Origin: Buxus sempervirens
Taxonomy: Eukaryota; Streptophyta; Magnoliopsida; Buxales; Buxaceae
Reading direction: 5' to 3'
Assembly: GCA_947561395.2 (NCBI GenBank)
Contig: OX387193.1
Coordinates: 35,290,255-35,354,254 of the forward strand
Length of the DNA: 64,000 nucleotides
The position numbers and the translations under genes are program-made. Positions within the stretch are counted from its first letter, which is position 1, and each line of letters begins with the position of its first letter. The notes under the pieces are model-generated. The model searched no databases. It was not told the DNA's origin and saw only the letters and a program-made list of their open reading frames with translations. Positions 2,641-56,084 of the stretch are shown piece by piece.

Positions 2641-5466
2641 TGTAACGCCCCGGGCCCGGGTTATGTAAATAACCCGTAACACGTCTCCGGAGGTTAAAAT
2701 ATAACACAGGATCGCAATATCAGAGTGAAGGAAAGACATGAATACAACAATAACTAGAAATCAGAGTACGCTAAAATCCCAAACTGAAATAAACTCACAA
2801 GATCGAGTAACTACCCGCAGGAATCTTCCTCTCCAAGAGCTGCTGAAAACAAAACAAAACAATACGGAATGAGATACGAATATCCCAGCGAGCCACACAT
2901 GAATGCACAAAACCATTTAGTTCAGTTCTAAAACATGCCACGGTAAAAGCATACATGGTGACGACAACACATATAATTCGAGTAATCCAACAACATTCCA
3001 ACAATCCAATCGATATAAACGCAAAAATCCATCCTATAACCCCAATTAATAACATCGGTATCAAATCTCGAATCTAGCCATGAAATCACGTATAATCAGG
3101 TAACCATACCTTGAAGAAATCATAATTTCAAATAACTCAAGGTTTCGAAATATTGGAGTGTTTATCATGGGCCACTCCACACCAATAAACCAGCAAATAA
3201 ACATCTCGTTAGAGAAAGTCAAAACCAACATTGGTCAATGTCATGTAATTGCTTAAATTGGATAATCAACATGCGGGAGTGTTTATCATGGGTCACTTCG
3301 GACCAAATTCCGGCCTACTCAGGGTTTCGGAATACTGGAGTGTTTATCATGGGTCACTCCGGACCAAAATTCCGGTCTACTCAGGGTTTCGGAATACTGG
3401 AGTGTTTATCATGGGTCACTCCGGACCAAACTTTCCTTATGGAGGCTCTCAATATAATTTTTAATCCAACAACAAAGCTTAACAACATATAATGCAACAG
3501 CCTCAAGACATACTTATTTTCAAATTATGCTCATAACATCAAGTCCAACAAAAGAAATCAAATCAGAAATATCGGATCTGAAATTTACAGTGTTAATCAT
3601 CTCAGTATTGAAAATATGGAAAACGTGAAACCATTCAATTACTTGGAATTCAGCATGAGCAGAAATTAACTGCTTTTTTCCTAAGCCTCCACTGTTACTT
3701 TTATTTTCTAACCTGGTAATGAAGAGGTTCTAGTGCACCACCCTTTTCCGACCTAAATAATATCTATTCAGGTGTTAGAAATTTCTGTATCAGTAACCAC
3801 CACGAAATAAGTTCATACTAACAATTCGCCGCTCACTTAGTTTATTAATAGGTTTCAAACCATAAATTATCTAATATAACATTTAACTTTGATTAAATTT
3901 ATTAATATGCATTTCATATCTGACGGCCACCTCATTTTCATTACCTACACTTAACTACACTCCTAAAGTAAGTTTATTGATGGTTGAAACAAGTTCTGGT
4001 GGTTTGAGGAGGGGTTAGCTGCACTTGGCTAAGACAACCAGAGTGGCCGCTAACCTTCTTCCCTGGTGTTTAATACTTCTTAAATTTATGGCTTGCATAT
4101 CTGATTCTACAACCATCTAGGTATCATCTACAACATTTAATTAAACTAGTGAAGTAGGCTAATGGTGTGGTAAAACAATTTCGGATGGTTTGACAAATTA
4201 GCCACACCTGGCTAACTAAAAACACTTGGCGCTAACCTCTTAGAGGTTGGCGCCGGTTAGCACCACATGGAAATTTAACTAGCGCTAACCTCCTAAAGGT
4301 TAGCACCAGACTAGCGCAGTTAGCGCCAAATGATCCAAACCTCTGACTCTCTGAAATCTTCGATCCAACCCTTCCGATCGATATTTCTAGTACAATATAG
4401 GTTCCATTAACATTCCTTAACCTTTAGGAACTCATCCAAACATACTTGACCTTAAAGCAATCAAATCCTAATATAGAACTCTAGAATTTGGCATTCGGCA
4501 TGTTCACAGTCGATCTACTTAATTACTAACTATACAAACCATGAAAACTCATATAATGCATCGACAAAATTTGAAAACAGTGCTACTCACCTGATTCGAA
4601 CCTCCTCAAGCTCAGCAACTCCAAGGCTTCGACTGAGTACAAATGGCAACGATTCTAACTCCAAATTTTCTGCCGCTCACCTCTGATCCCAATTCCTCTA
4701 CCAAAAGTTCCAGATTTGATTAGATCTGGATGAAATCTAGATTCCTTTAACAATTTGTTCACAATGATCAAGCTAATTTTCTCTTACCTGATCTCTCCAA
4801 ACGAATTGACTGAATTCTGCAACCTCCAACCACTGCAACCTCCGACAGCAGAATTCCACTACTGATTTAACTCTAAGCCACCTTAATTTTACAATCTCCA
4901 CTCACCTTCTTCTCTCCTTCTCGATCTTGTTGAATTTCGGCAAAAATTCTCTTCTCCGACCAATCCGAGCGAAACCCAAAACTTCATATACGACCTTTAC
5001 TTATAAGTTTCTGTTAGCGCTCAAATGCCAACCTCAAATCATGATCTGTTGTGTGCTCACCCACAACCTCTTCCTACATTAACAATTCTTTAACACCCGA
5101 TTCAATGATTGCCTCTTCACCTAATCACCTACCTTAGCACCCTACTAAATAAAAAAAATAATTTTAAACATAATAATGATTCAGATTATCATTTTAACCA
5201 CAACTAATTTTAATTTACTTCCTTCCGCACTTAATTTAGTTAAATCCCCAAATTACCCTTTTAACGCTACACCACAGAACCGCCAAAACCCAACCCATGA
5301 AAATCAAATAACCGATCTTTCCTTTTAATAATAATTCATCTTATCTAAATTTTGAATTTTAATGTTAAATAATTTCCTTTCCCCATTTTCTAAAATTTCC
5401 ACTAATTAAATGAATTAACACACAAAAATCTAATTTTCAATGTTATTAAAAATTCGGGATTTCATA
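2641..5466 (-). mobile_element. Solo LTR P (family 1), inserted in Q gag
   Basis: The element is 2826 bp. Its reverse-strand end is CCCGGGGCGTTACA at 2641; its start at 5466 reads TATGAAATCCCGAATTTT, so the usual TG has become TA. Flanks are AGTGC and GGTGC, a target duplication with one A/G difference. Inside are the family's cassette: predicted donor, a GC-rich GCGCTAACC motif cluster (4210-4330), three ~60-bp repeats with GGCCTACTCAGGGTTTCGG (3290-3420), a hairpin and a predicted acceptor. No coding capacity is visible. Confidence 0.88.
2843..4590 (-). other. Predicted intron inside LTR P
   Basis: The reverse strand has donor CAG/GTGAGTAGCAC (4590-4580) and acceptor TTTTGTTTTCAG (ends 2843). 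The hairpin GGGATATTCGTATCTC (UUCG loop) is at 2871-2886. The segment GTGTGGCTCGC at 2888-2898 can pair with the donor at 10 of 11 positions, counting G-U. Splicing itself is inferred. Confidence 0.5.
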
Positions 5467-10923: not shown

Positions 10924-11342
10924 CCCTCAACCCAATCGAACCCTGGTTAGAAAAGAGTCAACTTAATTGGATATGGGCAGATCTAGAAAGTACTCTTTGT
11001 CCAACTTTAATGAATTACGGAACACACGTAATTATGTGATTCTGAAGGGTCCTCTCAAACGGACTCGATAATTGCCTAAGGTAAGTGGATTTTAATGGGA
11101 CCACTGTGAGCCTTCCACTTACCTGGGGACCCACATAGACATCATATTGCGTGCCGATTTTGTACTTTCACTATAAACGAGACATAGGGGAACCCTTTAT
11201 CAACCCAATATCCAAAACTCACCCGATTAGACACAGCACTCTGCCAACTGCACACACAGGCACCTCACCACACCGTGGATGACTTTATAACTGCATAGGG
11301 TGACACGCACGAGGGAAACTGCATGAATGATCTGACCAGAAT
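10924..11342 (+). mobile_element. Leader of element R, first part
   Basis: Noncoding internal sequence lies between the primer site and solo LTR M. I see no credible ORF or RNA gene in it. It continues at 14686 after M. Confidence 0.5.
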
Positions 11343-11873
11343 TGTAAAACCCCGAATTTTCAGCAAATAAATAAATAATAACTAAATCTAAATATTGGGT
11401 ATGTCTATAAACTTGTCAAAATAAATTAGAGAATAAACTTAGAAATCTCGGAAGAAATCGAGTGAGTAGATGTAAATTATCAAGGGAAGGGTATTTTGGC
11501 CAATTCATATTAATTATTGGTAAATAAATAAATATATTAATTAAGTTATTATTAGACTTGAGAAATAATGATAGATTTAAGTTGGGTTTAGATTGCCTAT
11601 TAATAATGATATTTATACCTTGATAAGTGGGATAAGGGCATAATGATAAATATAGTCGATTTGGAGCCTTAAGTTAAGGAGACAAGAATTCTATTGAAGG
11701 ATTTTAATTATAATTATAGAAGATCACAATGATAAGGGAGATCAGGAGAGTGGCGCAAAATCTGACCATTGGATCGTGGTAGATCGAGGTAAGAATTAAG
11801 TAAATCCGAAACTGTGTTCTAATTGCATTGTTGTCTAATGGGTGATGCATGTGTGTTGCGTAGGATTGTGGGG

Positions 11874-11881
11874 TATAAAAG
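11874..11881 (+). promoter_or_regulatory. TATA box of LTR M
   Basis: TATAAAAG occurs 531 bp into the LTR, about 250 bp before the predicted splice donor. Equivalent boxes occur in H (51428) and I (56941). Confidence 0.6.
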
Positions 11882-12121
11882 AATAGGGTTTATACCCTAG
11901 AGGAATGCTAAGCGTATATTCCATCGTATTGTATTTGGTTTGGGTATTAGACGGCCGAAGGAGAAAAACGAAAGGGAGAGAAAGACCGAAGAAGAAGAAG
12001 AGAAGAAGGAGAAGAAGGAACAGCTGTCTTGTGTTCTTCATCGCCTTAAGAGTGTTATTCTGTGTTTGAGAAGAGAAGAGGGCTTTCTGTTCAGAGGAAG
12101 AAGAAGAACTCGCACAATCAG

Positions 12122-14330
12122 GTAGGTAGCACCAAGTTTTAACGTTCGTTTTGTGTTCTTGAGATTGATCGAATCGTTTGCATGTTTTTATGATGTATCT
12201 ATATATCTTTAGTTTGTTAATCACTTTATATGTATGTTAGAATCATTTAGAACACGAAAAATCAGATTTTACACAGTCGAGTAGCTATTTTTGGGTGAGC
12301 GCTGACTTCTCTGCGCTCAGCGCTCTTGAGCGATCCTGAGCGCTTGTTCAAAAAAATATGAACGCCGAAGACCGCTTACTGACAGAAGGTTGGCGATCGA
12401 TTTTGAACTACCGCTAACCCTAGACCGCCTGAGCCACCATGAGCGGTCCTGAGCGCTCTAAACAGAAAATCCAATTTTTCGTATTTTAATCCCCATTTCA
12501 ATTCTAAACCATTTTTAATAAATTTTAATCATTACATAAGGTGTTTTAGGACCAAAATAATTTATCAAATACCCTGTTTTGGCAGAAAAATAAATAGGGA
12601 ATTATTTTGGGAAATTAGTTGCCTAAACTTGATCTTAAATAAGAAATTCTAAGTTCAATGCAGATAAACCTTTATAAATTAGAATAATTAATTAAGAGAC
12701 ATTAATTTATATATAAGCAACCAGATTTCTACAAATAGAGACTTTATATCAGAAACCCAACCCTGTTGAACTACCTTTGATAAATCTTAAGTACCAGGAC
12801 TAATAAGCTTCATTGGTAAAACTGTGAACCAGAAACTACCTTATCGACATTGGAGAAAGGACGCTATATACCTTTAGGCCTTATTTGTTAATTGAAGTGG
12901 TCTACTCTAAGTTTCTCTACTAAAATAACACATACCCTATTATACTATGTCACCACCCCTAAATTCTACCTGAACTTCTTATTAAATAGCAAGAACCATA
13001 TTATCCCTAGACTTACGTAAGTATCAAGTATCTTATTACACCTAAACTTTATTCTCTAAATTACTTTATAACTTTACATAACTTTTAATTATCACATAAC
13101 TAGACCAGGCCATTGTGATTACAAACTAATGAACTAAGTTTGGAACAAGACTTTGGATTAATGATTCAAACATGAATCAACAACAATATAAACAACAATG
13201 AAATACAAATTTCTGATATAATGGCTTGGTGGCCAGTTTTATTAATAACCTATTTGGTGGCAGAGATGTATTGATTATTACCTACTTGGTGGCAGAGATT
13301 ATTACCCGCTTGGTGGCAAAGACCTATACCCGCTTGGTGGCGGAGACCCTTAACCCGCTTGGTGGCGGAGACCTTAACCCGCTTGGTGGCGGAGACCCAA
13401 CCTGCTTGGTGGCAAAGATAACCCACTTGGTGGTGAAGACTCAACCTGCTTGGTGGCAGAGATTACCCGCTTGGTGGCGGAGATACCCGCTTGGTGGCGG
13501 AGACATTACCTGCTTGGTGGCGGAGACATTACCTCATGCGGGAGAGATTTATTATCTCTTGTGGGGCAAATGTATTTCCAATGGATTGCATCCTATAGGA
13601 GAGGTACCTCATGTGGGGAAGATGTGATTATGCGTGATTGCATCCCACATGGAGGATGGGTGTGTGAGTTATCACTGGAAGGTGAGGAAGCTATCTCCTA
13701 CGGTAGAGGTAGATGCTATATGTTCACATCCTACGGTAGAGTTATGCTGTCTCCTGCAGGGGGTACCTATAGTCTTAGAGATGTGCATTCTCCTGCGGCA
13801 TGTGTGGATACTATGTGTTTACGTCCTGCAGTAGAGGTAGGCTACTACCTGAAGGTTGGTTTTATTACTGATACAATGATTGATTCGCCGATTGATGGGT
13901 TGTCTTAGATAGATCTGACAAGATTGTTTATTTAAAAGGAAATATTGAAATGTCATAATTGAACAGAACTGCTATGATTAAATGTGAACTATTAAAGTGG
14001 AATATTATTAGATCATGAATAAGATGTAGAATTGTTCATAGGAAAACACTAATTGAAATAAATTAGAAATCATGGGAATGTGGTTTATAATACATGGTCC
14101 TTTAAATTGAAATGAAATGCACATGATTAACTTCCTTTAATTCGGGCACCGGTTCAGTGTTTGTTTTGTATCGTGATTATTCGTTTATCTTATTGACCGT
14201 AATTACTTGTTTATTTTACCGAGCATGAAACCACTGTTATTTTTTATATATATATAAACTGTTTTTCCTCATGCATGTGTTACCTACTGAGATATTCATA
14301 TCTCACCATACTTCATATTTTATTTTTCAG
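12122..14330 (+). other. Predicted intron inside LTR M
   Basis: The donor is CAG/GTAGGTAGCAC and the acceptor is TATTTTTCAG/GT. The segment GTGTTACCTAC at 14277-14287 can pair with all 11 donor bases, one pair being G-U. One base later comes the hairpin GAGATATTCATATCTC (14289-14304), 26 nt before the acceptor. The intron would remove the tandem array and the GC-rich cluster. No transcript data are available here. Confidence 0.5.
13226..13540 (+). repeat. 24-bp tandem array in LTR M
   Basis: Thirteen or so imperfect units are built on CGCTTGGTGGCGGAGAC, with spacers of varied length. Related decayed units with CCTGCGG/CCTACGG continue to ~13830. It is homologous to the array in LTR N in the opposite orientation. 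The long open frames here are repeat artefacts. Confidence 0.82.
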
Positions 14331-14685
14331 GTCATCTTGGAGAGGACGCCACGAGTTAAACTGATAGTGGGTTGAAGTCTAGAAAATCCAAATGAAAAGA
14401 GTAGGATAATTCTATATAGTTGTATTTATTTTATTGGAATCATAATAGATGATTTGGTAGGGTATTAAGAGTTAGTTAATTTGTAGTTGCCTTTCTTTTG
14501 ATTAATTGATGCAATAGGATGATCCATGTTCAAATGAATAATTTAAGCTTCCTAGCACTCTGATAAATCTTAGTTCTTTATTTCTCTATCTTTTGAGCTG
14601 ATTGTAATGTACCACAAGTTAATGCCTTGATCCGAGTAAAAAAAAATGAAAAAAAAATGACCCGGATTCGGGGCGTTACAAGAAT

Positions 14686-15748
14686 GATGAATGGATTCCG
14701 ATTGTGAATGTTCTCCTCTGCTAAAAACCTAGACCTCCTTAGCAGCCACCCTTCTGATTCGATAAACTTACTTTTGGGGTGGTATTAACCCTACGCTCCC
14801 GTGGCTTGCTGGGGAAAGCAGGGTAAACCCATCTCCCCAGGTTTTTGGATTCCTTAGTGCTACTGGTTTCTTGCCGTGGTACACGATGGGTCTGGTACTT
14901 GGCTCAGACCCTTGTAGGCAGATGCCTCGGGCTGGGTATCCTTCCCCACCTATTACTTCTGAAAACCAATGTGAATGTGAATGTGAATGGAGAAGTAAAA
15001 GGTAAAAATAATTTAAAACCCAAGAGTCCATCAGGGGCAGCAACCCCCGTCTTTTTGCATCAAACTGAGTGAGCCCTAGACCATGGGCTATCTTACCCCT
15101 AACTCAGGGAGCCAACCCAATTTTGATTAGGGGTGCCACCCCGGTTGCATGCATTTGAGTCCTATGAGTCGTGGGCCTTGACCTATTGAGTCCGCTGGAA
15201 GCACCCTAAGTCCTAGTCGGCCTTTTGAACAGATGAAAGCCGGCCAGATCAGACAGTCAGACAGAAACAGGCCAAATCAAAATAGAGGCACAAAACCCTA
15301 GATTTAGGAACTTGGCCTGCCTGCCTTGAAGCAAACACGTACCCTCCTTTTGAGCTCCCAACAGCCCTGAAGGTGATTTCTTTGCAGATTTTTGTAATTA
15401 TTGTAAATTTCGCCCTCGATGGCAAGTTGTAAATATTTTGTTGTGGTCTGACACCAGGGACAGATGAAAGAGCAAATGAAAGAAAAGGTTGATTGGGATT
15501 TAGACGTGCTTCCTTTACACAAGTATGTCTAGGAGTCGCACCTTAAGTGGTGCAAACCCTCTAGGATCACACACGTTTGTGTGTTTGCATTTAATTTCTC
15601 TAAGTCTGCTCATGGCTTTAGTTAATCTTGCTAAACTGCTGAAATGATGATTTAATTTCTGCACTTTCTTATGCATGCCTTAGACTAATTAAGAGTTTTG
15701 GCATATAAAAAACCCTAATTGACTTGGGATTAAGATCGGGTAGTCGGC
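14686..15748 (+). mobile_element. Leader of element R, second part
   Basis: Noncoding sequence leads to ORF1. GAGTCGTGGGCCTTGACC near 15167 recurs as GAGTCATGGGCCTTAAA near 47691 inside LTR G, suggesting G carries Tat internal sequence. A short (GTGAAT)n tract occurs at 14970-14988. No gene is supported. Confidence 0.5.
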
Positions 15749-16190: not shown

Positions 16191-18319
16191 TGTAACGCCC
16201 TAGATCCGTGTTGTTCATTAAAGATATAACACGTCTCACAGAGGGTTAGGTAAGGATCCAAAATAAGTGTGATCGCTGGATAATCACATAATTAATACCA
16301 TATCAGAGTGCATAGTTAATTCTTATCTAAGAAGTCCAAAATAATCTTTAATTAAAATCAAACGATTCCACATCAACTACTTTATTACATTTCCTAAAAT
16401 CAAATGAGTCAAAGTTCCAATCTAAAATAAACATACTAGTCTATGGATTGTAGTAATAGTCTTCCTCCCTATATGTATTAGTCGGATCTACCCCAGTAGG
16501 CGCCTCACCATGAGTATCTGAAAACAAAACAAAAACAAACGGAATGAGATACGAATATCTCAGCGAATAGCATATGCATGCAAAAATAGTTATCAACAGT
16601 TATAAACATGCCTCGATAAATAACCAACACCAATACATCAATAGAGATAAATTCGAAATGGAAATCCAGAAGTCTAATAATAGTTCACATCAAATATCAA
16701 CCACAGTACCGATAAATCAACGAAAGGTCAATGTCATGCATATTGCTTAAATTGGTTAATTCACATGCCAAGGAGACATTCCACACCTCCATGTACACAG
16801 TTCCGGCCTACTTAGGGTTTCGGACACTCTGAAATGACGGCCTACTTAGGGTATCGTCATCCAATGCCGGCCTACTCAGGGTATCGGCATTGACAACCAG
16901 GTCTACTCAGGGTATCTGGCTGCTCTACACCGGTTGTGGCAACACACAAGGCCATGCAATTACCCCAACAAACAATACCATCACATTACTAAGCTCAACA
17001 TGGATCCAAGGGAAGCTAAACCAAAACCAAAATAACAATTTCATATAACTTAGTATTTGCAAAACAATAAACCCACACCAATTACCATCATGTGTATCCC
17101 AATACACTCATCACAAGTCATTCCAACCAGAACAGGAACTCATGTAATTTCAGTAGGTATCCCAACCCCAAAACAACAAACCTCATCAGCAGTAAAATCC
17201 TCTTACTCACACAAGAAATTTACAATACTATTCAGCCCTTTGATATCAAACAAATCTAGATTAAACAAATCCATAATCAGAAGACAAATATAATACATAA
17301 ACCAAACTAAGTCATTAACTTATAGTGTCATGAACAACAAATAACCTACACAGATTCCTTCAATTCACACTTCGGAAACTTATAGAAATACCTAGAATTT
17401 GATTTAATGCTCTTCCAATTTTTTTGAACAAATATAATATTTCTAATATCCTAATCTAGTCTTTGGGTAAGAGGTTGAAGTCTCAAAGTATCAAAAATTG
17501 GCTTGGATTGGTCAAACACAACTTTCGGCAGGTTTTAGGGGGTGCGCTGACCTCTGGCGCTTGGTGCGAGGTCGGCCCCAACTCGGCGCATACCCAATCA
17601 GTGTCTCGCGCGGACTAAAAGTAGTTGGCGCAAGGTCGGCGAGAACTCGGCGAATCAAAATCAATCCCGCGCTGAGCTGCCGCTGAGGTAATATGGTTGG
17701 CGGCAACTCGGTGGATCCGACCCTCGAAACGTGACTCTCTGTTAACCCTAGATCTCCATGACTGACCATATTTTTGACCTCTGTAACTACTTTTCTATGG
17801 TTCTACCATCCCCAAAACACTTTTAAACATGATTCGGATTTAATCTAAACAACTTTATATCACGACCTGAATCTCATCGAATAACTCACGCTCGAAACTA
17901 TGTTATTCAGCAACCATGCTTCAAGGCTAAACTATTAGATCAAAACCAAAACACCGGATTAAAACGATGCCACTCACCTCTTATACGCTTAACCCCTTGC
18001 ACTACAACTCCTACGATAGCAGGTCCAACATTCGATCTCCTTTTCACACGATGACATTCTGAACTCTCTGAGTGACTAGGAACCACACGTCGGCTTCTCT
18101 CCAAAACCCTAGAACTCCAGCCGAAATCTCCTTCAACTCAAGTATGCGAAAACCTATGAAACTAAATACCTTAAGTATTTATACTTACCCAATATACTTT
18201 GCCGCTCGACGAATTTTGAAACCCCTGATTTAGTGCACGCTCCCCCACCAAGTTTCCCTACATACACAGCTTATTAATTTTTCACAAATAATAATCATGT
18301 AGAAAATTGGGGTTTTACA
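16191..18319 (-). mobile_element. Solo LTR K (family 1), inserted in R ORF1
   Basis: The 2129-bp element is flanked by a perfect AAATA duplication. On the reverse strand it starts TGTAAAACCCCAATTTTC at 18319 and ends GATCTAGGGCGTTACA at 16191. It contains a TATAAATA box (18183-18176), predicted donor (17977), GC-rich GCGCAAGGTCGGCG cluster (17530-17720), ATGGATCCA motif (17000), GGCCTACTTAGGGTTTCGG-type repeats (16805-16915), hairpin and acceptor. Confidence 0.92.
16518..17977 (-). other. Predicted intron inside LTR K
   Basis: The reverse-strand donor is GAG/GTGAGTGGCAT and the acceptor is GTTTTGTTTTCAG. ATGCTATTCGC (16573-16563) can pair with all 11 donor bases using three G-U pairs. This includes an A-U pair where other copies have G-C. 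The hairpin GAGATATTCGTATCTC (16561-16546) has a UUCG loop. Confidence 0.5.
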
Positions 18320-21970: not shown

Positions 21971-22151
21971 TGGGTGCCCGGGAACTGGAGATTGGCTGAG
22001 GCACGCCTGGGTGCTGCTTTTCAGCTCACCCCCTGCGGAGACCCTGCATGGTCCAGCCCCGTGATACTGAGCTCAAAAAAACCCCCCTTAAAATTGAAGG
22101 TTCTCTTTCCTTGCCAAGATGGCTCAGAAAATTCAGATTTTGGGGGATTTT
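21971..22151. other. Residual element R sequence, nothing identified
   Basis: The stretch contains a decayed repeat unit and T/C-rich sequence. I see no gene or signal. Confidence 0.4.
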
Positions 22152-24101
22152 TGTAATACGAATAAATATTCAATAATTTTTCTGATAAGTTAAGCATACG
22201 AGCATCTTTATAAAGACCTAATTAAGGTATAAAATTTATAAATTTATATTGGGAAAATTAACCAATTAATTGGAGGTTATAATGAAAGGTTGGTGCATGA
22301 AAATGTCTAAATGATATGGGATAATGTTAGGAATAATACAATTGGTAATTATGGAATGAAAACATCTTCTAAGCTATATCTTAGGTCTGTAGGATATGCT
22401 GGAAAATAAAAATACAGAAAACTGAAATAGAAACTATCTTAGGCATTAAGATGGGGACTTGGATTATAATAAGGGGATTAATAAGGAAAACTCTAAGAAA
22501 GACTTGAGTTACTTTTATTTGTGCTTTAAAAATGAATATTGGTTTCTGGAATTGTATAAACTCTGATTTTCATCGAATTTATGATTCATGAGTTTTATTT
22601 TGAATATAATTGGGAAATTGCATATGTTATTCTGAAAAAGGTTTTATTTGGGTTTAGAAGGATTGAATCATGTTTTTCTCTTGGGATTGAATATTTTGGC
22701 ATGGATTGGATTGTGGTACAATGTTATTCGCTTTTCTTTTACGGTTGAGTGATACGGCTCCTGTGGTTGAGTTGATATTAGCTTTTACGGCAGAGATGGA
22801 TAATCCTCTGTTGTAGAGATGTGTAATCCTTTATGGGTAAAGTTGTGTATGCCTTCGATAGTAGCGTGTCCTCTTGTATGTTGTTTTATTGTGGTTTGTG
22901 TCAATGGACTTAGTTGTATATGGATCCATAGTTTTGGCTGGTTAGCTAAGTGATATTTCTTTTGGGTTGAGTTACTCCTATGTGTGAGCGCGCTTCCTTT
23001 GCAAGTTAGTTTGCTTTGGAAGGTCCTATGTCTGGAGGGACACCCCGGTGTGCCGTTGGTGATTCTCTGTACATGTGGATAAGCGCCATCTCCATGTATT
23101 GATTTCGGGGCTGCATGCTAGTGGTACATGCCAACTCTGTTGAGTCGTGCGCAATAAGTCGATGACTACGGCTCCTATCTAAGGTGATGTTCACCGGTTT
23201 GAGTATCATTAGTAGCTTCGTCCTTAAGTTACATGGTGGTATTGCTTGTGGTTGAGTGTCATCTCAAAAACTTATCATCTTTGTGAGTCCTGCAATGACA
23301 CGTGCTTTATTGCTTTCGTCGGTTTTATTTATCGATAACATCTTTTTGCTGGTATTTACGTATGATTACATGTCTTATTGCTTTATTTGGATTCAGCATT
23401 GATAACTTGAATTTCTCGTCTTATCGTTGATTAATCGTATACCTCATGACTATTTGCTTACATTAGACTGTTTTAATTGCATGCACTTGCTACTTGCTGA
23501 GATGTAAATCTCACTCCGTTTTTACCTATTTTTCAGGTTTGCTTGGAGAGATCGCGAAGATGGGGTTTATTTGATGGGTAGATTTGTAATTGATATTATT
23601 GTCCACATTTTGATTAGACAAATTTTATTGTAAATTGATTTGATTAAATTGAATAAAAAATTGTTTTATTTCTCACCAGAAATTTGATGTAATTAACTAA
23701 CTTTAAAATTTATTGTGAATCTTAGTATTGTATCTAACCCCAGCTTCGTGGTAACACCTCGGGTTTGGTTGTTGAACTGGACTTGGGTTGTTACAGTAGC
23801 GAATCGGGTTCGGGTTGGGTGCCGGTTTTGCACTGACCCAGGTTCGGGGCGTTACACTTGGAGAGATCGTCATGGGGTAGTAAGCACATGGGTAGAATTG
23901 TGACTGTAAAACTAGAATTATTCCAGATTAAAGAACATAATATTGTAAATAAATTTGTATTAATTGAAACATTTATGATATGCTGCCAATTGTACTCTGA
24001 TATAATTAAAAGTTTTAATTTTGCATAAATTTTAGTTTGTTTTGACCCAATTCATACTAACACTCCGGTTTTGGTTGTTGATCCGGATCTGGGGCGTTAC
24101 A
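22152..24101 (+). mobile_element. LTR S (family 1) with two successive 3' tails
   Basis: It starts about TGTAATACGAATAAAT and has the family order: ATGGATCCAT (22920), hairpin GAGATGTAAATCTC (23499-23512), acceptor TATTTTTCAG (23536), and CTTGGAGAGATCG. A complete LTR end GGTTCGGGGCGTTACA occurs at 23856. CTTGGAGAGATCG then begins again and runs to a second end GGATCTGGGGCGTTACA at 24101. The 5' portion lacks a recognisable donor and promoter. No matching target duplication is found, so this may be a recombinant or a 5' LTR. Confidence 0.68.
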
Positions 24102-24408: not shown

Positions 24409-24800
24409 TGTAATCCCCTGGATCTGGTTTGTTCATTAAAGATATAAATACGTCTCCGGAGGGTTATGTATGGGCCCAATTACTCATACCAAACTCACAA
24501 TCATTATCATGAGTAATATATCAGAGTGCGGAAATTTAAAACTTCTATTTAAAGCGCGGGAGTTCTAAACAATACTACAAGCAATTATATCATGAATCAA
24601 TTACCAATTTTGATACCAACAATAAATCTCAATATCAAATGGTAAAAGTCGCATCAAAGTATCAATATGACACCTACTAAATCTATGGATGAAAGTAATC
24701 CTCCTCTTTACATAAATTCTCCGGCCCTACCCCTGTAGATGCGTCCTCTCAAAGAGTGGTCGAAAATAAAACAAAACCGGAATGAGATAAGAATATCCAA

Positions 24801-26235
24801 GCAAGTAGCACATGCATGCTAAAAACATTTTATCACAGTTCTAAACACATGCTACGATAAATATACATAATCATGTTGATATGAAATCACATAGAATCCA
24901 AATTAACCAATACGATCATAAACAAGTGTTGATAAACCAACCGTATCAAACCAAATAGTTATATCTCAACCAAAACAAGTATCAACATAGGCCAATGTTA
25001 TGTAGTTCACTTTAATTGAGTAATTAAACATGCCAGAGCCAAATCCAAACCTCCATGTATATAATCTGGCCTACTCAAGGTTTCAGATACTAAAATGATG
25101 GCCTACTCAGGGTTTCGTAATCCAATGCCGGCCTACTCTGGGCTTCGGCATTGACAACACCCTTGTACTCAGGGTTTCGGTGCTGCTCTACACCGGTTGT
25201 GGCAACACTCATGGCCATGCAATTACAAAAATAAAGTCAACACACCACATTACTAAGCTTAAGTAATGGATCCAACACAAGTTAAGCCAAATAGCTTAAA
25301 ACAAAACCAACATGTAAAACAATATGCTTAACATATAATCATGGGTCAATCATATGACCAAATGCACTCATTCATGGAGGATATCAAATACATGCCCTCA
25401 AGGAGAATTTTCAATAACCAAAACAATATTTATGTCAACACAATCATGAGATCGAACAATTAATCTAAATTCGTCCATAATTCCCAAATTAGGCTAAATC
25501 TGCCCAAATCAATGGAAAACCATTTTTATACATTTCCAAAAGTTAAAACATGTTTATAAGCAACTAATATAAGTATAGGAAACATCCAACTCAATTAAAA
25601 TTAAAGAAAAGAACACAAACTCATTAAATTCCCAAATTAAGACCAATTTCGGTAAAACATGCCCAATTTTACATAATTAATTTAATAAATTCAATCGGCC
25701 ACTGGAAATCAGTTCTAGAGACCTAAAACTTGTTTGTACATGAGTTGGATTTGCCCAGAAACTAGTCTAAGCTCGATAATCATCTCAAAACTCAGATTAC
25801 ATGAAATCTGGGATGGCCGCTCGACAGGGTTGCTCAAGCGTCCTGGTTGAGTGCCCCCTTTCCGGGAATTTTTCTTCTAGATCTAAACAACTAACCTTAC
25901 CGCTTGAGAGGTCCCTTAAGCGGTCCTCAACTATATCTAAAAAAACAAGAAATAAAAGGGGCGCCTAACCCTGCGCTCGAGCGTGGGGTCTAGTGGTAAA
26001 TCCGATTTAACCATATCTCTCCAGGAATAATTGTTCTAATCCTTTTAACTACTTACTAGAACACATATAAAACGCAAATCCATGCTCATATAATTAATTC
26101 AAAGGAATTCTACACATATAATCAAATTTCTATCTGATGGGGCAATAGAACCCATTATCTTTGGTTAATCATCAATCTATTTGAAACCAAAACAATTTTC
26201 ATACTATAGATTCAAAATTAAAGAGTGCTACTCAC
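24801..26235 (-). other. Decayed intron signals of LTR T
   Basis: Donor GAG/GTGAGTAGCAC (26235-26225) pairs fully with GTGCTACTTGC (24811-24801), with two G-U pairs. The expected acceptor just left of the hairpin reads TTTTATTTTCGA, so AG is missing. Confidence 0.4.
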
Positions 26236-26366: not shown

Positions 26367-29190
26367 TGTAACGCCCCGAATCTGGTTCAACAACCAAACC
26401 CGAAGTGTTACTAAAAATCTGGGTTAGAACAAACTAAAATTTATGCGGAATTTAAAACTTCTATTTATATTAGAGTACAATTGGAAGCATAGCATACTTA
26501 ATTCAATTTAATCGAATTAATTTACAATAAGAATTTCTTTATACTTAATTTGTTTTATGGTAACAACCACAATTCTACCATGAGTACACTACCCCAAACT
26601 TGACGATCTCTCCAAGCATACCTGAAAAATAGGGGAAAACCGGAGTGATATAAATCTCAACAAGTAGCAAGGTGCATGCATTTGAATAGTCTATTTATGA
26701 AATAGTCATGGGGTATAACGATAAATCGTAGAAAAACAATAATTCAAGTCCATGTATACAATTTCAATATAAACGATAAAATATACTCAAAACCACATGT
26801 AACATCACAGGACTTATGAAGCAAGATAAGTCTTTGAATAGACACTCTTCATTCACTACGCCAACACGCGACTTATGAGCGAAGATAGTAAATCCTCAAA
26901 CCAGAATCTGAATCTGACAATAAGAGGCCTAGTCATCGACTTATTACGCATGAAACTCAAGTACCAGCAACACAAAAATTGAAATACGGAGTTCGGCATG
27001 TACCATTAGCATGTAGCACCTGAATCAATAAATGGAGATGGCCACTTAACCACACATAAATGATACTCACTAGCAACACAAACAGGAAATGAGACCCTAC
27101 AGACATGAAGACCCCCCAATGAAAACTAACTTGCAAAGGAAGCACGAGGGCAAAATAGGCGTAATCAACCCAAATAAATACCCCTCCAATCTAGCTTAGC
27201 CTATGGATCCATATACAGCTATGCCCGCTAGACACAGCTCACACATATTACAATTTATTCTGTTTACAATTGATTACCAATTCATATGTATATTTTCGTA
27301 AACCATGATCTCAAATCGATTATCATAATTCGTTTTCAAGTGATATACATGTCTCAATCTTTTTAACTCGAAATCAATCCCGTTGACAAAACACAATCAA
27401 AACCACGAATAAATCTTTAAACCAGATTTCATAAATATTGACGCACCCAAAACATAATTATTAAAAGTTTAGACAGGTTATAGTTTATATTCATGAGCAA
27501 AAATAAGATTCCTATGACTTGACTATAACTTCCCTAATTAACAATTTATTTAAGATCCAAATTTCTATAGTTATAACCTAATGTGTTAAGTTTTATAATT
27601 TCTGTTTTTCAATTCCAGCAGATCACACAGACCCATATTGAAGCTTAAGAGTTGATTCTAATCCCCAAATTTATGTTTAACTTAATCTAATCCTCTATTT
27701 CCAAAACCTTGACCTTTAAGACACCCATTTGCATTCATTGTTCCAAATTATTAGTTTTAATACCAAATTAAATTCGGTTAGTTCCTACACTTCAATTTAA
27801 CTCCTATACAGGTGTTACAATAATTAAATTACTAGGAAAAATTATTAAACATTAATTTAGACGTAAAATCCCCAATTTTCAAATCCTGATATAGGTCACT
27901 CAAGCAGTTGTGTTAAGCGGCCATACAAATTTATGCAAATTTCCCAGATTTTCTGATTTTTGGGTTATTTCTTTGGTTTTAATTGTTCTAAATTTATTCT
28001 TTATTAACCTACATCACACCTACAACTCTCTGAACCTATTTGTATCAATTAATTACAAGTTCATGGTCCTCTACACAACTCTATGAACCTATTTGTTTCA
28101 ATTAATTACAAGTTTATGGCCCTCTACATATAATTCATACTTTTATACTTTTCTTTCAACAACATGTAAACTCATTGATGAAAACCAAACGTATCCATGA
28201 AATATATTTTCGTCTAATCAAATCAATTAAGAATAAATTAAAAACACAGAAATCATGCAGTTCATCCAGTTTTCAAGTGATTGCTACTTGCCTTATCATG
28301 CAAAAATCCATTTTCTCTTGAATCCGAACTTCTGTTATTTTTCACACTAACCTAGGGTTCTCCAAACAAGATCTCCACTGTTTAGATTGTAGTCCTAGCA
28401 GTCTTAAACAAAACCTCCAAATTTGAGGTCGATCCAACGGTTGGATCTCTCCCGATTTAACTTTGATGGCTGCTGGTCGGAGGGTTTTGCAACAACTCTT
28501 TTCTCTTGTGATCTTTCTATTTTCCTCTTTCTCTCTCTCTGGACTCTCCAAACGTGGGATCTACTTTTTTCTCCTCTTTTTCCTCTATATAAATTGATTA
28601 AAAGAAATCCTAAACTTGCTTTAATGACCTACTTAAATAGACAAACCTTAGAGGAGTCCAATTAGGATTAGGAAACCTTCTAATTAATTCCTACTTTCTC
28701 TCCTCCTAATTCTCTTTTTAGTATTTTACCTATTAAGTCCCTTACTAAATAAACTCATTTTTAATCAAATTTTCGTTCATATTTTATATCTATTTCTAAA
28801 TATTACCTAAACACTCTATTTAGTCACTTTTTCTCCAAATTAAGGCCACTACTTAAGTATAATTACCCAATTGCCATTTTCCCCTTCTTTTATGCTATAA
28901 TTATTACTATTCAACTTCAAACTTAACCCAATAAGTTTTAGTCTTCTATTTTCCAATTCTATTAATTATTTAATGATTTAATTCATCAATTGTCCTTTTG
29001 GAATTTCTTAAAATACCCTTTTATCCTCCTAGATTGATTTCCTTTGAAAATTCTCTTTTATTTACAAATTATTATTTATTTGAATTATCAATCCTCTAAA
29101 TTTTCATTCTTTTATTTCCACTATACTCAAACCCCTATTTTCTTTTATTTACTTATTCCTTAATTATTATCTAAAAATTGGGGTTTTACA
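26367..29190 (-). mobile_element. Solo LTR U (family 1), inserted in T
   Basis: The 2824-bp element runs on the reverse strand from TGTAAAACCCCAATTTTTAG at 29190 to CCAGATTCGGGGCGTTACA at 26367. Flanks are ATACC and AAACC, a duplication with one mismatch. It belongs to the same subfamily as V, which lies in the opposite orientation to its right. It contains a GC-type donor, a GC-rich cluster (27890-27930), ATGGATCCAT (27203) and an acceptor. Confidence 0.85.
26622..28291 (-). other. Predicted GC-AG intron inside LTR U
   Basis: The reverse-strand donor is AAG/GCAAGTAGCAA and the acceptor is CCCTATTTTTCAG. TTGCTACTTGT (26670-26660) can pair with all 11 donor bases, and the unusual C at intron position 2 faces a G. 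The hairpin is partly decayed (GAGATTTATATC). Confidence 0.45.
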
Positions 29191-29478
29191 AAACCCTTAC
29201 CAATTCTCTGTGTTATATTAAACATAAATTATTAACTAGAATCATTCTTACCTGTTTTCCCTAGATCTGAGCAAAAATCCTCTCCAATTCTCCACTGATT
29301 TCCTTCAATTCTCCTTCATAGCTCCATCGACCAATTCAAGTTTCTTCTTAGATCTCTTCAACTTAATCTCCAGTTCTTTCTAGAGCTTTCTCTCCTTTTC
29401 TTCTAGGGTTGCTGTTCTCTATTCCTCTAAAGAATCTTAGATCCAATCGACAAAACAAACAAACAAACTAATTCTATT

Positions 29479-34312: not shown

Positions 34313-36897
34313 TGTGAAACCCCAGTTCCAATACCCTTAACACACCCTAATTGGTAGACTTATTGTGTACGTGAAGTTGGAGAAGCCCAAGCTTGAAGCC
34401 TTCAACGTGGCTAAGCCCCGGCTTGACAGTGGTCTATGAAGGTGAGCAACCTCTAGTTTGTTAAATAAGGTTGTGTATTAAGTGAGAAAATAGCTAAGTG
34501 TTGATGTTGTGCAGTATAAGAGGAGAGAGTGGCAAACTTGTAAAATGTGTCTTGTGGAGAAACTTTGCTTAAGTGGAGGAAAACCAAGGGGAAAGCCCCA
34601 TTCGACCAAGACCCTTTCCCAACCCCTTTCTCTCTTCACTATCTTCTCTCCCACTCTCATTTCTTCCTCATCTTCTCCTCATTTCCTTCTCCCCATCATA
34701 TTCTAATCCCATTGTTATTAAACCCATTTGAATAGAACCTATTGTTAGCAAGAAGAGAAGAAGGGAGCACAAAGGAGGATTTTCGTTTGGAGGCTTGGAA
34801 GTTTGGAGGTTTGCGAAGAGCAACCAAGGGTGCTGCTCGTGGGTTTCAAAGACTTGCCTGAGTGATTGCAAGAGGTAAGCAATACCACCCCAACCCTTAT
34901 TTCAATTTTCGGCCATTTTCGTAGGTGAATGTGGAAGTTAGGTTTGGAGATGGGAAAACAAGTATTAGGACAAATGGGAAGGATTTCTTTGAGGGGTTTT
35001 GTAGGAAATAGATTTCCCCACATGCTAGGATAGATTTAGGGCCCAAAAACACCAAAAACGAGTGAGATTTGAGAAAAACCAGAAATCCCAAAAGTTCGGA
35101 TTTCGCGAATTGTAAAAAAACCCAGTCGCCTGAATAGCCGCTCGAGCGCGGTATCAGGTGATCATTTTAGGTAAAGACCTAAGGTATGGCTGCTCGAGCG
35201 ACTGCTCTAGCTACCTGCCTAAAATGGAGAACCTGAGAGCAAATTTCTAGCTGCTCGAAGCATGCTCGAGCGCCCTGTACAGATTTTCCAATTTTTGAGT
35301 TTTTAGCTTAGATTAAACTACCAATTGTTTTTATTCAAGTCCAACCTATATATAAGTGAGAGTTAGGTGTCTAGGAAGTGCTCAAACTGAAAGTATCTCA
35401 AAATTTCAAATAACAAGGATTTTGGGTACGTTTTGCTAAAGAAGGTCTTAGAGAGAGTTTCTGTCCCAGATTCCTATAGAAGTAGGATAATTTGATTCGG
35501 TCACCTCGAGCACCTTCCAAATAGCCCTTAGAATTAGAAATCAAGAATCAAAACTAAGTTGTGCAAGTATCAAAAGAGTTGAGGCATAGGTTGCCCAAAT
35601 GAGTCATGAACTGTAGAAATTTTGGGAAAACCTATCCTTTACCGTTGACCTCATTGTGAGTACACAACCACATGATTTATTTAGGGCATTGGCCCATTTT
35701 TTAGCATGTCACATGTGGATAGCATGAGTTGTTTATCGTTGCTCACTATAAGGCATGAATTGTATGATATTAGGGCGTTGGCCCATTACTTGATTGGCAT
35801 GAGATGAAAGGGCAGTGTCCCATGGTTATTGATATTGAATGAAAGAGCAGTGACCCATGGTTATTGATATTGTATGGAGGGCAGTGGCCCAGATTCCATG
35901 AGAAATGAAAGTGGGCTTGGCCCAAGATTGACTCGGGTAACGCCATAGGCTACCCTTGACCACTTTCCATGCAAGTGTGCATGTTGTATAGTTGTGAAAT
36001 TTGATTGATGAATGAATACATCAACATAATGAACCCTTAAGTTATGGATCCATAAACTTAAATTGGATTGTTTGTATATATATGCCATGGCCAGTTGTTG
36101 TTGTTGTTATTATTGTACTTTACTGTGATATCATCCCGGCACTAACAACATCGATGGTCGATGCCCATTTGCTACGGGGAATCGGAAATGGATGCCTGTA
36201 CATCAAGGGGAATCGGTGTAGATGCCAAGCCACCATGTGGAATCGGTGAAGCTAGATGGGGTCATGTGTAGTATATATACTAAACATCCTAGATAACCAA
36301 GTGATAAGATTGAGTAAGGATTGTTATTAAATGGATTACCTGTACACCACGGCACATGCATGCACTATTTGTGTGACACTAAGATGCCGTGGATTTTGTA
36401 GTATTAGAACTACCTGTATGCCATGGTTTTATCGAAGGATATTTGTATCAACTGTGTTTTCACCGATCATGCATGTTTTGTTTACTGAGACACTCGTCTC
36501 ACAGTTGTTTATTATCTTATTTTTCAGATCCGTTGACGTCCGGTGTGAAGGACTGGGCTGGGGATAGAGGCAAGGAAAAGGCTATTGGGTACAGAGAGGA
36601 AGACTATTATAGGCCTTAGGTTTTATTACTATTTTGTACATAGTTCCTTTTTAGACTGTAACCCTTACACTATAGAGGAGTGATTAGTCACCTACATCTT
36701 GTATTTATTTTGAAGTCCTTGGGACTTATTACATTTCAAACACACTTTGATATGCACAAGTATAAATTGTTTGTCATTTGCACTTGTGAGGAAAAAGTTT
36801 TAAATCCTTTGCATTTTATCAAGTACAATGACCCACCCGTCACGGCCTGGGACTGGGGGATGCCTTGGAGAGGCATAACTGGTTCGGGGGCGTGACA
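34313..36897 (+). mobile_element. Solo LTR A (family 1), inserted in LTR B
   Basis: The 2585-bp element starts TGTGAAACCCCAGTTCC and ends GGTTCGGGGGCGTGACA, with perfect AAAAG duplications. It holds donor (34875), GCTCGAGCG cluster (35125-35290), GAATCGG-type repeats (36175-36255), ATGGATCCAT (36044), hairpin and acceptor. The deep nesting makes it one of the youngest insertions in this block. Confidence 0.93.
34875..36527 (+). other. Predicted intron inside LTR A
   Basis: The donor is GAG/GTAAGCAATAC and the acceptor is TTATTTTTCAG. GTTTTGTTTAC (36475-36485) can pair with 10 of the 11 donor bases, although the donor differs strongly from those of K, M and W. The hairpin GAGACACTCGTCTC follows at 36487-36500, with C-G where other copies have T-A. 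Confidence 0.5.
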
Positions 36898-37129: not shown

Positions 37130-38748
37130 CTGAAAACAAAACCGATAAAAACAAAACACGCGTGAGACTAACGTCCTAGTAAGTAGCACAATGTATGATA
37201 AGAAACAGTTTATGCAACTTTCAAATAATAAAGAAACATGCTAATATACCATACGTTCAAAACCCATCCAAATCATACGAAGAAGTAATTCATTATAACA
37301 ATACAAATCTCAGTATAAAGTGTCTGTGCAGGACTCGTGGATTAGTGTGTCTGTAAATCGAGATAACCACACTCAACCAAAATGCCACTTCATGACTCTC
37401 GGGTAGAAGCCTGATCACGGTCATCACCCTGAGTGGAGCACCCACGCATGGGCTAGAAGAAACAACCCAGTCAACTGTGAATAACCATCCATAAAGTCAT
37501 ACACACGCGTACTCGCACACACAAAGACCTCGCCGATCCCACACGGCGGAATGGGTTGCCACAGCTCATTATCCCACAAGAAAGCCTCACCGATCCCACA
37601 CGGTGGAACGTGAATGTGGCCCGGGGTGTTAACTCGACAAGCCATCACTAATACACTGACTAGGTTGACTATGGATCGTCAATCATCTTTAAGCCCACCA
37701 GACCATAAAAACCAACCACGGTTAAACAATCTCACAATTCTAAGATTCTGTGGTGAATTTAGGTTCACTACCCACAATGTGTCAAGCATGTGCTGAACTT
37801 GAGTTCACTACCCCCAGAATCCATATTTGTGGTGGATGCAGGTTCACTACCTCCAGCTAGGGTGAACAACAGTCCATTACTCCCAACTAAGGTAAACGGC
37901 AATCCACTGCCCACAAATATCCACGTTTGTGGTGGATGCAGGTTCACTACCCCTAGTTCTCATTCAGCAAGGGTAAACAGCAATCCACTATCCACAGGAT
38001 CAACATATCGTAGGCCACTGGCCTTTTAAAGTTCTCGTTTACCATAATAAAATACCATATACCGTATTCATATAATTCACAGATAAAATCAATTCCAAAT
38101 CCTTCAACTCCATTAAAATCAAAAGAGAGAACATCATTTCCTTAAAATACCAAATCAAAACCAATCTAAGTAAAAACGTAACCACAAATCCGATTATATT
38201 AAATTCCAAGATAAACTAAATAGAAGAAGTCTCTAAACACCTAAATTGTTCATACATGAATTTAATACTATAAGAACACATCCCACGCTGAAAATCTACT
38301 CAAAACACCCAAAAATACATTTTCTGTGTGATGGGCTCTTGGCATGGTTGCTTGGGCGACTTAGCTGGGCACCCCTTTTATTTGATCTGTGGTGGGCGCC
38401 TGGCAGGGTCACCTAGGCGACCTAGCTGGGCGCCCCCTTTAATTTCTAGCCAACTTTGGTCGCCTGAGCTACCATGGTGAGCGACGGAAACCTAATGTTT
38501 TTCGAATATGCATTTCTCCTAAATCTAACTACCAAACTTGTTTTATTCCCTCTCAAACACTTAACAATCATCAAAGAACACTCAAGGAACAAAACCTAAC
38601 CATTTATAACTCGATTTACACAATAAATCTTCCCCAACCCAAATCAATCATATAAAACCCAAAAATATCGCATGAAACCAAACGAACATGGATTCTTTGT
38701 TTAAAATGAGATTTCTTTGCAAACCGTAAGTAGAAAGGTGCGACTTAC
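37130..38748 (-). other. Predicted intron inside LTR B
   Basis: The reverse-strand donor is CAG/GTAAGTCGCAC and the acceptor is GTTTTGTTTTCAG. GTGCTACTTAC (37189-37179) pairs with 10 of 11 donor bases. The hairpin stem GGAC/GTCT with loop GTTA is at 37164-37176. Confidence 0.45.
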
Positions 38749-53627: not shown

Positions 53628-56084
53628 TGTAACGCCCCGGATCCGTGTTGTTCATTAAAGATATAACACGTCTCACGGAGGTTAGGCAAGGATCGTTAAT
53701 CAATTTATGATCGCTGGATAATCATACATCTATAACCTAACAGAGTGCACATTTCCATTTATGCAAAATTGTAACATTTAAGCTAAGCTGAAATCATGTG
53801 GTTCATCCCCCAATGACTTTAATACATCTCAATTAATTCAAGTTCTCAAATTCAGAACAGATAACCTACAAGTCTAAGGAAGGTAATAGTAGTCTTCCTC
53901 CCTATATGCCTCAGCAGGATCTACCCCAGTAATCGCCTCACCACGAGTATCTGAAAAAAATAGAACAACACATAGTGAGATACGAATATCCCAGCGAGTA
54001 GCACATGCATGCAGAAATAGTTGAATCACATTTTAAAACTATGCATCGACAACACTACAATACGTTTAAACAGCCAACATCAATTTCCCAAGTTCAAATC
54101 AAACAAATCACATCTTAGTTAAATACAATAACACATCGATTGGTCAATGTCATGACTATCGTTTGGTTGATAAATTAAACATGCCAAGTAGACACTCCAC
54201 ACCTCCATGTACACAGTTCCGGCCTACTCAGGGTTTCGGATACTCTGAAATGACGGCCTACTCAGGGTTTCGTCATCCAATGCAGGCCTACTCCCCGGGT
54301 TTCTGCATTGACAACCAGGCCTACTCAGGGTTTCTGGCTGCTCTACACCGGTCGTGGCAACACACAAGGCCATGCAATTCCAACAACCAACAATAACATC
54401 ACATTACTAAGCTTAAACATCTGGATCCAGGACAAGCTAGACCAAAACAGTAAACATCGTATAATCTCGATTTCAATATCAAAACAAACCATTCATTTCT
54501 ACATCATGTAATTACTCATCACAATTCATCACCTGTCCCTCTGGACCAAGCAGTGCCTCAAGTACATTCAGTACTTTCTCATTTCCATAACACAAGTCAT
54601 ATGAAAGTAAAACTCAATCCATTCATACCAAAGAAAACCATTCAATACGTATAAAGTTTCCAACAAGTGAAACCAGAAATACAAGAACTTCTCAATCAAA
54701 GCAGTGTATAGAATAAGGAAAAGTAACTGGTAACTCTTACTAGTTCGGTGTCCGGCACAATACTCATAAGTAACCTAAACCCAACTTGAAACTCATAAGA
54801 TGTTCACAAAATTTTCCTCTATTAATTTCATAGGCAAAATGGTTTCCCAGGTTCCTAACCAAGTGAATAGTGAAGTGGTTTAACCCCTAAGAAGTGCAAA
54901 TACTCTTGGTCAAATCAGAAATTCCATTTCGGTAAGCAAAATAGGTCTGCCGCTCACCTATCGAGGTGGGCGCGAGGTGAGCGCCGGTCGGCGGTGAAGA
55001 AAATGGGCAAAAGCGACCTGCCGCTCACCCGACGCTAGGTGAGCGCGAGATGGGCGTGAGGTGGGCGCGGGATTCGCGCGAGATGAGCGCCTTGTTTTCT
55101 ACTTCGCGCGAGATGAGCGCGAGGTGGGCGCGGGATCGGCGGTAGGTCATTTTTAACAGGGCGCCTCCCTCCGAGGTGAACGCCGGTGAGCGCGAGGTGA
55201 GCGGATACCCCTGTAGTTTTCATTTCTCTGTTATTTTGAGATCTACATGAATGGCCGGTTTGTGAAGGTCTGTAACTACTCCAGTACACTCCTAATACTC
55301 CCAGAAGACTTCCCAACCAGATTTGAAATTAATCTAAACACTTTCATTTTCAATTAAAACTTCAATCCGGAGACTCTGTTCATGTAACTTTCCGAAAAAC
55401 CAGAAAAACCAGAAAACATCATACCATCACTCAATATACAAAACATGCATCATAATAAGCTCGAGAAACATAAAACCCTGTTGTAAAACAGTGCTACTCA
55501 CCTGTGCTTATTCCCGAATGATAAAACCCCGGCCGATCACTTCTCGGCCACGCGCGCGAATGAAAAACCTATCGAAACTAATCTTCTCGAGCAGAGGGAA
55601 ATAACCCAAGGAAATTCAGCTCCGAACTCCTTCTTCCAGCACTTGCGATATATGGTTCTTCACGAACGAAAGCCCTAGTCGCCCTCCAGCCAAAATCGCC
55701 AATTCTCCTTATGTCCAGAGTTAACGAAAATGTTGCCGAAATTATGCTAAGCGCATTCTCATAAACCCGAACCCTACTTTCCATTTTAGTCCACTTACTT
55801 GTTACATACTCACTCGAATACTCTCCCATTTCCTTGATCCTATGCATGCTCGCCTACGGAAGACACTACCTGTTCAGCATCTATTCGCGTTAAAATCACA
55901 TAACTACACCTTAATAATACCAATGAGAATACTACGATTTTTCGGAAAAATGGCTATATAACGCCTGTACATATGAGTATGGGCTAAGCCCTCAAACCAC
56001 AAAATAACCTGATAAACACAGTTTATACATCAGAATAAATAACTAAATAAATAAATAAATACTCACAAAATTCAGGGTCTTACA
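53628..56084 (-). mobile_element. Solo LTR W (family 1), inserted in H
   Basis: The 2457-bp element has perfect GTCGT duplications. On the reverse strand it starts TGTAAGACCCTGAATTTTG at 56084 and ends GGATCCGGGGCGTTACA at 53628. It is close to K and P in its 3' part. It holds a large GGTGAGCGC/GGTGGGCGC cluster (54950-55210), CTGGATCCAG (54421), GGCCTACTCAGGGTTTC repeats (54220-54340), hairpin and acceptor. It is the innermost element of the I-G-H-W stack. Confidence 0.93.
53951..55501 (-). other. Predicted intron inside LTR W
   Basis: The reverse-strand donor is CAG/GTGAGTAGCAC and the acceptor is TATTTTTTTCAG. GTGCTACTCGC (54004-53994) pairs with all 11 donor bases, with one G-U. The hairpin GGGATATTCGTATCTC (53992-53977) has a UUCG loop. 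This is the cleanest example in the window along with M. Confidence 0.5.

Follow-up and report, generated by a model that had tools for sequence, protein, structure and literature searches.

A covarying helix joins the donor of candidate introns inside plant retrotransposon LTRs to a segment near their acceptor

Plant LTR retrotransposons are generally intronless; Ogre and EVADE are named as notable exceptions in the part of a December 2025 review cited here (PMC12786077), and BARE1 and CRR are further spliced elements (PMC3735527, cited part). The facultative introns of these four elements yield both spliced and unspliced RNAs from one element (PMC12786077, PMC3735527), as the candidate introns described here would. 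In the cited portions of both sources those introns lie in gag/pr, in rt or between ORFs, whereas ours lie wholly within the LTR and have a covarying helix between their donor and acceptor sides. Yeast RPS17B (RP51B) likewise has an intron whose two ends pair over a long distance; in the cited part of the source, splicing is promoted by this pairing, and its 5' segment is located downstream of the splice site (PMC2536676), whereas here that segment is the splice site itself (+1..+11). Conserved intronic complementarity near splice sites is also found among PCCRs and by IRBIS (PMC8052449, PMC4174434). In humans, the cited portions report, such regions are underrepresented at active splice sites and tend to avoid branch points, whereas our helix starts at +1 and abuts a candidate branch-point hairpin. 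In the HIV-1 leader the major donor is base-paired in the packaging-linked form (PMC4576207, cited part), as our donor pairs by sequence; that fold lies inside the retroviral 5' leader, whereas our donor and its partner, near the 3' splice site, are separated by 1.4-2.2 kb. No described case of an intron inside a plant LTR was recognised among the literature matches listed, most subscription papers aside. In the cited part of PMC5599236, splicing joins solo-LTR sequence to another element, which is a different case. The units described here would combine two known kinds of system: the facultative intron of a retrotransposon, and the control of a splice site through long-range pairing.

The window, that is the whole stretch of 64,000 nt of Buxus sempervirens DNA that was analysed, is a plant transposable-element nest of old insertions. 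An LTR-end scan of seven copies (T was left out) identifies TG...CA ends with 5-bp target duplications in four of them, M, W, K and A; the same scan found no such frame for U, X and P.

11343..14680, + strand: LTR of copy M, TG...CA ends, target duplication AGAAT
11874..11880, + strand: TATA box of copy M, 248 nt upstream of the donor, putative LTR promoter
56084-53628, - strand: LTR of copy W, target duplication ACGAC
18319-16191, - strand: LTR of copy K, target duplication TATTT (a second, weaker candidate frame is at 18949-15725)
34313-36897, + strand: LTR of copy A, target duplication AAAAG

We take the TGTAA...GTTACA ends to resemble those of Ty3/gypsy Tekay-type chromoviruses; no coding region bearing on this membership was recognised in the window. 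A PBS scan found none adjoining the LTR of copy M, which is read as a solo LTR, and the three matches in the window to a Met-tRNA-type PBS pattern (up to 2 mismatches) all lie away from recognised LTR ends. The window holds no ORF of at least 250 aa. Given these two results, M, W, K, A and related copies are best read as solo LTRs in nested old insertions. An ORF piece at 15734-16087 (+) exhibits a weak, sub-threshold match to Pfam DUF7745 (25.7 bits against a cut-off of 26). The LTR end at 23856 sits within exon-2-like sequence of a second LTR ending at 24101, and the region 23487-24101 probably contains a nested insertion. Tandem repeats occupy 41296-42177 (147 nt) and 21393-21971 (144 nt). 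M (-248), K (-206) and U (-300) have TATA-like boxes 206-300 nt 5' of the donor; in W such a box lies at -459, and none is found in A, X and P by the pattern used. The boxes at -308 and -234 from the T donor belong to the neighbouring U copy, which ends about 130 nt upstream of that donor. Rfam gave no match for 11300-14720 with E up to 0.1, and searches of viral contigs and genome contigs found no relatives beyond the window. Three exact viral-contig matches were judged to be chance, a hairpin and acceptor not being visible by eye.

Eight complete intron-like units (M, W, K, T, U, A, X and P), falling into about five divergent groups, are present in this one window. Each is arranged in the same order: an AG|G(T/C) donor, about 1.5-2.2 kb of intron, an 11-nt partner segment, a hairpin, a pyrimidine tract and CAG. 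Their coordinates, with the parts of copy M given in full, are as follows.

12122..14330, + strand: copy M, candidate GT-AG intron in the LTR, 2,209 nt, 45 ATGs
12122..12132, + strand: copy M, 5' arm of the long-range helix, intron +1..+11 with the 5' splice site included, donor GTAGGTAGCAC
14268..14276, + strand: copy M, CATGCAT box, directly 5' of the partner, kept in most modules
14277..14287, + strand: copy M, 3' arm (partner), GTGTTACCTAC
14288..14305, + strand: copy M, hairpin, beginning right after the partner
14305, + strand: copy M, candidate branch point A in CTCAC, last hairpin base, 25 nt before the intron end
14329..14330, + strand: copy M, acceptor AG with a T-rich tract 5' of it, CAG ending at 14330
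53951..55501, - strand: copy W, candidate intron, donor 55501, partner 54004
16518..17977, - strand: copy K, candidate intron, donor 17977, partner 16573
24760..26235, - strand: copy T, candidate intron, donor 26235, partner 24811, acceptor decayed (TTTTCGA, ending at 24760)
26622..28291, - strand: copy U, candidate intron of GC-AG type, donor 28291, partner 26670
34875..36527, + strand: copy A, candidate intron, donor 34875, partner 36475
37130..38748, - strand: copy X, candidate intron, donor 38748, partner 37189
2843..4590, - strand: copy P, candidate intron, donor 4590, partner 2898, lowest pairing score of the eight
23487..23536, + strand: acceptor module B (partner, hairpin and CAG), no recognised donor in the window

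Donor and partner are 1,404-2,155 nt apart. The last intron base lies 38-49 nt past the partner in seven of the eight units, and the same seven end in CAG; in T this CAG has decayed and the next YAG is at 24733. CAG is present in 8/9 acceptor modules. By sequence the units have the marks of U2-type introns: a GT or GC donor, a pyrimidine tract, CAG and YTNAY, the branch points being candidates. Introns contain 34-48 ATGs. In all eight copies their T content is higher, and their GC content lower, than in the 200 nt 5' of the donor. Against 150 nt of exon 2 there is no T-enrichment of the intron: in copies T, X and P the T content of exon 2 exceeds that of the intron, in M, U and A the two are equal, and in W and K exon 2 is 1-2 points below the intron. 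Short tandem repeats (CTTGGTGGCGGAGAC-like) occur at 13225-13530 within the M intron, and 13285-13534 of the same intron matches 5911-6153 of the copy with donor 6995.

The acceptor modules were collected by a search with the M acceptor region, and a profile of the nine related places (M included) recovers all nine at E 2.3e-15 or better, with nothing else below 0.24. Donors were first chosen by pattern, and a profile of 12 recovers them at E 0.0024 or better; the thirteenth, 30384 (+), was included despite its E of 0.12 because it is the mirror copy of the U donor, and 57313 (+), E 0.23, was excluded. All 13 donors are AG|GT or AG|GC, of the form AG|G(T/C)RRG. The GC donor AAG|GCAAGTAG is common to 28291 (-), 51773 (+) and 30384 (+), so that the GC-AG intron seems to have been inherited within one LTR subfamily. 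Two of these sites are mirror copies: a large inverted repeat at 27479-31181, with arms 83% identical, mirrors the donor regions 28291 (-) and 30384 (+). Donor-like sites outside the donor set are 40228 (+), 54957 (-), 4680 (-) and 57313 (+). Of these, 54957 (-), within the W intron, and 4680 (-), 90 nt upstream of the P donor, have GTGAGCGGCAG in common and reach a score of 8.0 against the W and P partners; AG|GTGAGCGGCAG is possibly a second conserved donor.

Some parts in the window are unmatched, namely 5/13 donors without a partner module and 1/9 acceptor modules without a donor. For two of the partnerless donors, 31658 and 33700, the sole perfect match is the inverted copy of the other; sites matching the remaining three (51773, 30384 and 6995) reach 9-10 and lack a hairpin and acceptor. 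Module B has no donor-like complement upstream. Its best match, GCGACTAGCAA at 21498 (9 Watson-Crick pairs and one G.U, 1,989 nt away), is not preceded by AG and lies within the 144-nt tandem repeat. Only two AGG(T/C)RRG sites lie within 5 kb of module B, with scores of 5.5 and 5.0.

Conservation is concentrated in the paired elements. Over the 13 donors, identity is 76% at +1..+6 and still 73% at +7..+11, past the usual donor consensus, against 29% (-40..-4), 36% (+12..+25) and 32% (+26..+60) in the flanks. Over the nine acceptor modules it is 66% in the partner, 73% in the hairpin arms, 55% in the CATGCAT box and 35-38% in the flanks. The box, which adjoins the partner, is partly conserved and self-complementary, and we take it to resemble the plant RY element. 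Counting from the base that follows the partner, six of nine modules (M, W, K, P, A, B) have a mismatch-free hairpin of 6 or 7 pairs; the T and X hairpins contain one mismatch each, and that of U is poor (4/6 pairs). At the sixth pair, the long form and B have T-A, whereas A and X have C-G. The last hairpin base is the A of a YTNAY in 8/9 modules, 23-33 nt before the intron end (for T, the decayed end); at the U hairpin end no YTNAY was found. This A is a candidate branch point, a suggestion only, since YTNAY partly follows from the hairpin sequence itself.

The sequence-only reading had claimed that the first 11 intron nucleotides are complementary to an 11-nt segment near the acceptor. Eight whole pairs bear this out, including X. 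Donor GTAGGTAGCAC at 12122 and partner GTGTTACCTAC at 14277 of copy M form 10 Watson-Crick pairs and one G.U; the arms given for W, K, A, T and U are exact to the letter, and P pairs at 10/11 as claimed (7 Watson-Crick, 3 G.U, 1 mismatch). The count of eight pairing copies also stands, with a different membership: the copy called B is not matched, as module B has no donor-like complement, and X (38748/37189, -, 10/11 Watson-Crick) is absent from the pairs that were written out. What was meant by B may be X, or else the match to module B at 21498, which is not donor-like. In total +1..+11 are paired with the partner in 85 of 88 cells (96.6%, G.U included), the exceptions being +9 in A and +7 in X and P; by position, 6-8 of the eight copies pair.

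The helix has sharp limits. It starts at +1 in 8/8 copies, that is on the splice site and not downstream of it. Positions +12, +13 and +14 are paired in 0, 0 and 1 of the eight copies and -2 in one; at -1 a G stands opposite T (G.U) in all eight, and beyond -2/+14 pairing varies between 0 and 5 of eight (G.U included). A recent inverted duplication is an unlikely source of the complementarity, because pairing drops to 0-1/8 at -2 and +12..+14, with only G.U at -1; we rejected it as an origin.

The register is also specific. With the donor fixed, the true partner is the sole best among 1,453-2,204 positions in 7/8 introns; in copy P two other sites score as high or higher. When 6 kb upstream of each partner is scanned, the T donor is equalled by the U donor and the A donor by a site at 32360, and the P donor is absent from the four best matches listed. 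Among 16,641 pairs of 11-nt windows around both sites, the true register has the highest mean pairing (9.875/11, against a background of 3.77, sd 0.57) and, jointly with its own one-base slide, the highest cognate z-score. The raw cognate excess is equalled or exceeded by 61 of the 16,641 windows, the true register included; the eight windows highest in this measure pair at a mean of only 4.8-5.8. Register slides of 1-3 columns leave 19-52% paired. A de novo scan gave 5 matches at a score of at least 9 (mean 0.25, most 1, in 20 Markov windows) and 13 at a score of at least 8 (mean 3.5, most 7); as it was designed with the modules already seen, it measures specificity only. It missed T, whose acceptor has decayed, and U at the true partner, where the hairpin is poor; the score of P was 8.5. 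We also considered pairing of the CATGCAT box with +16..+160 as a second long-range helix, which is not supported: the best site in that stretch is unremarkable within the intron in 6/8 copies and ranks high only in W (2 of 1,452) and P (4 of 1,647).

Donors differ among copies and partners change to match, as had been noted, for example, between W and M. Changes on both sides relative to the commonest pair are found at five of the 11 pairs (+3, +4, +6, +8 and +11), in 8 cells; shuffles average 1.7 pairs and 2.3 cells, and reach the observed values in 3/500 and 0/500 cases. The covariation score is 0.513 (shuffles 0.347, sd 0.044; 0/500 as high), and the observed count of further pair types is reached by 55/500 shuffles. 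The double changes occur in different copies: +3/+4 in M against W, +11 in K and U, and +6/+8 in A. A sixth variable position, +2, is U-A, U.G or C-G, the GC donor of U facing a G in its partner and the GT donors an A or G. Of the 40,320 assignments of partners to donors, 18 reach the observed sum, the true one and ties from identical donors included. The donors of W, T and P share all 11 nt. Long stretches of W, K and T are 66-69% alike; the matches of P to K and T are short. Since the copies are related, the eight rows are not independent and amount to five units at group level, and for this reason a second permutation used five groups, namely M, U, A, X and one of W/K/T/P. The true assignment alone reaches the sum when W or K represents its group (1/120), and two assignments do so with T or P (2/120). 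Across the eight copies a covarying helix between the intron ends, as in the earlier proposal of a conserved helix between donor and acceptor sides, is supported by the pairing, the window scan and the shuffles.

The isolated helix has a predicted energy of -7.1 (A) to -17.6 (W) kcal/mol. Computed with what we take to be the U1 5' end sequence, U1-donor pairing is predicted to be less stable than the helix in five copies (M, W, K, T, U) and more stable in three (A, X, P). In shortened constructs the helix is in the MFE structure in 6/8 copies, A and P excepted. Folding of whole introns, a length at which long-range thermodynamic prediction is unreliable, places it in the MFE in 3/8, with mean pair probabilities of 0.99 (M), 0.69 (U) and 0.18 (T); in the other five the probability is at most 0.01 and the helix is unsupported by such folding.

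The explanation that we favour, and hold to be rather probable, is that the LTR intron is facultative and its donor is occluded by a long-range helix under selection, so that splicing is partial and the RNA is split between two roles. An LTR is rebuilt from the 5' end of its RNA, and a packaged RNA without the intron would yield intronless LTRs; an intron in the LTR must for this reason stay in the RNA that is copied. That 13/13 donors and 8/9 acceptors are recognisable in divergent copies suggests that intron-retaining RNA was indeed copied. The unspliced leader, with 34-48 ATGs per intron, should for that reason be translated badly. The plant retrotransposon LTRs would carry a U2-type intron downstream of the promoter, whose +1..+11 would pair with 11 nt lying some 40 nt upstream of the acceptor, these 11 nt acting in effect as a cis U1-mimic; the hairpin directly follows, its last base being the likely branch-point A. 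Helix and hairpin together may hide donor and branch site in the unspliced RNA and make splicing partial. Spliced RNA would shed the leader with its dozens of ATGs and become translatable, and reverse transcription of intron-retaining RNA would restore the LTR plus intron. A donor-covering helix would be the simplest way to keep both RNA forms. The units, their complementarity with its sharp limits and the covariation are seen in the sequence, and beyond them we infer splicing, masking as the main effect of the helix, and such a division of labour; that the helix sets the balance of spliced and unspliced RNA, as the sequence-only reading had suggested, would follow in the same conditional sense.

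A more elaborate version is tentative and somewhat doubtful. No base separates the partner from the branch-point hairpin, which allows end-to-end stacking of this hairpin on the donor helix. In such stacked helices the first G of the intron and the candidate branch A, the reactants of the first step, would be neighbours on the broken strand. The LTR intron might thus contain its own scaffold of RNA, which would fix the branching geometry in advance or keep both sites locked, until a factor releases it and thereby chooses between mRNA and genomic RNA.

Alternatively the helix might aid splicing, bridging intron ends 1.5-2.2 kb apart in the manner of RPS17B and being opened when U1 and U6 take over; pairing would indeed place the donor about 40-50 nt from the acceptor. 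We consider this unlikely and prefer masking, because the helix covers the 5' splice site, whereas the RPS17B stretch lies downstream of it (PMC2536676), and because human conserved complementary regions are, in the cited part of the study, depleted at active splice sites and generally obstructive when those sites are double-stranded (PMC8052449). Less likely again is a signal acting mainly in packaging, dimerization or strand transfer of the unspliced RNA, with donor masking as a by-product as in the HIV-1 leader, or a pairing of the 5' LTR donor with the 3' LTR partner that circularizes the RNA. The partly conserved, self-complementary CATGCAT box beside the partner would suit such a role, and the major splice donor of HIV-1 is base-paired in the dimerization-competent form (PMC4576207, cited part); a pure packaging signal, however, would need neither AG|G(T/C), kept in 13/13 donors, nor the pyrimidine-rich CAG of 8/9 modules. 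That the complementarity is unselected and inherited from one ancestor, its covariation being shared descent plus chance, gains something from the relatedness of the copies, the three identical donors of eight (W, T, P) and the mere 120 arrangements of the group permutation, and is nevertheless most improbable with flanks 29-38% identical against 66-76% in the arms, 96.6% pairing, and double changes falling in different copies (M against W; K; U; A).

How transcripts are divided between translation and reverse transcription is a major question for LTR retrotransposons (PMC3735527, cited part). If the donor is masked as we favour, a cis structure limiting splicing would answer this question directly. 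It would also provide a natural splice donor held by a covarying helix across 1.4-2.2 kb, useful for the study of long-range RNA structure in plants, and the module could serve as a marker for finding such LTRs in genomes.
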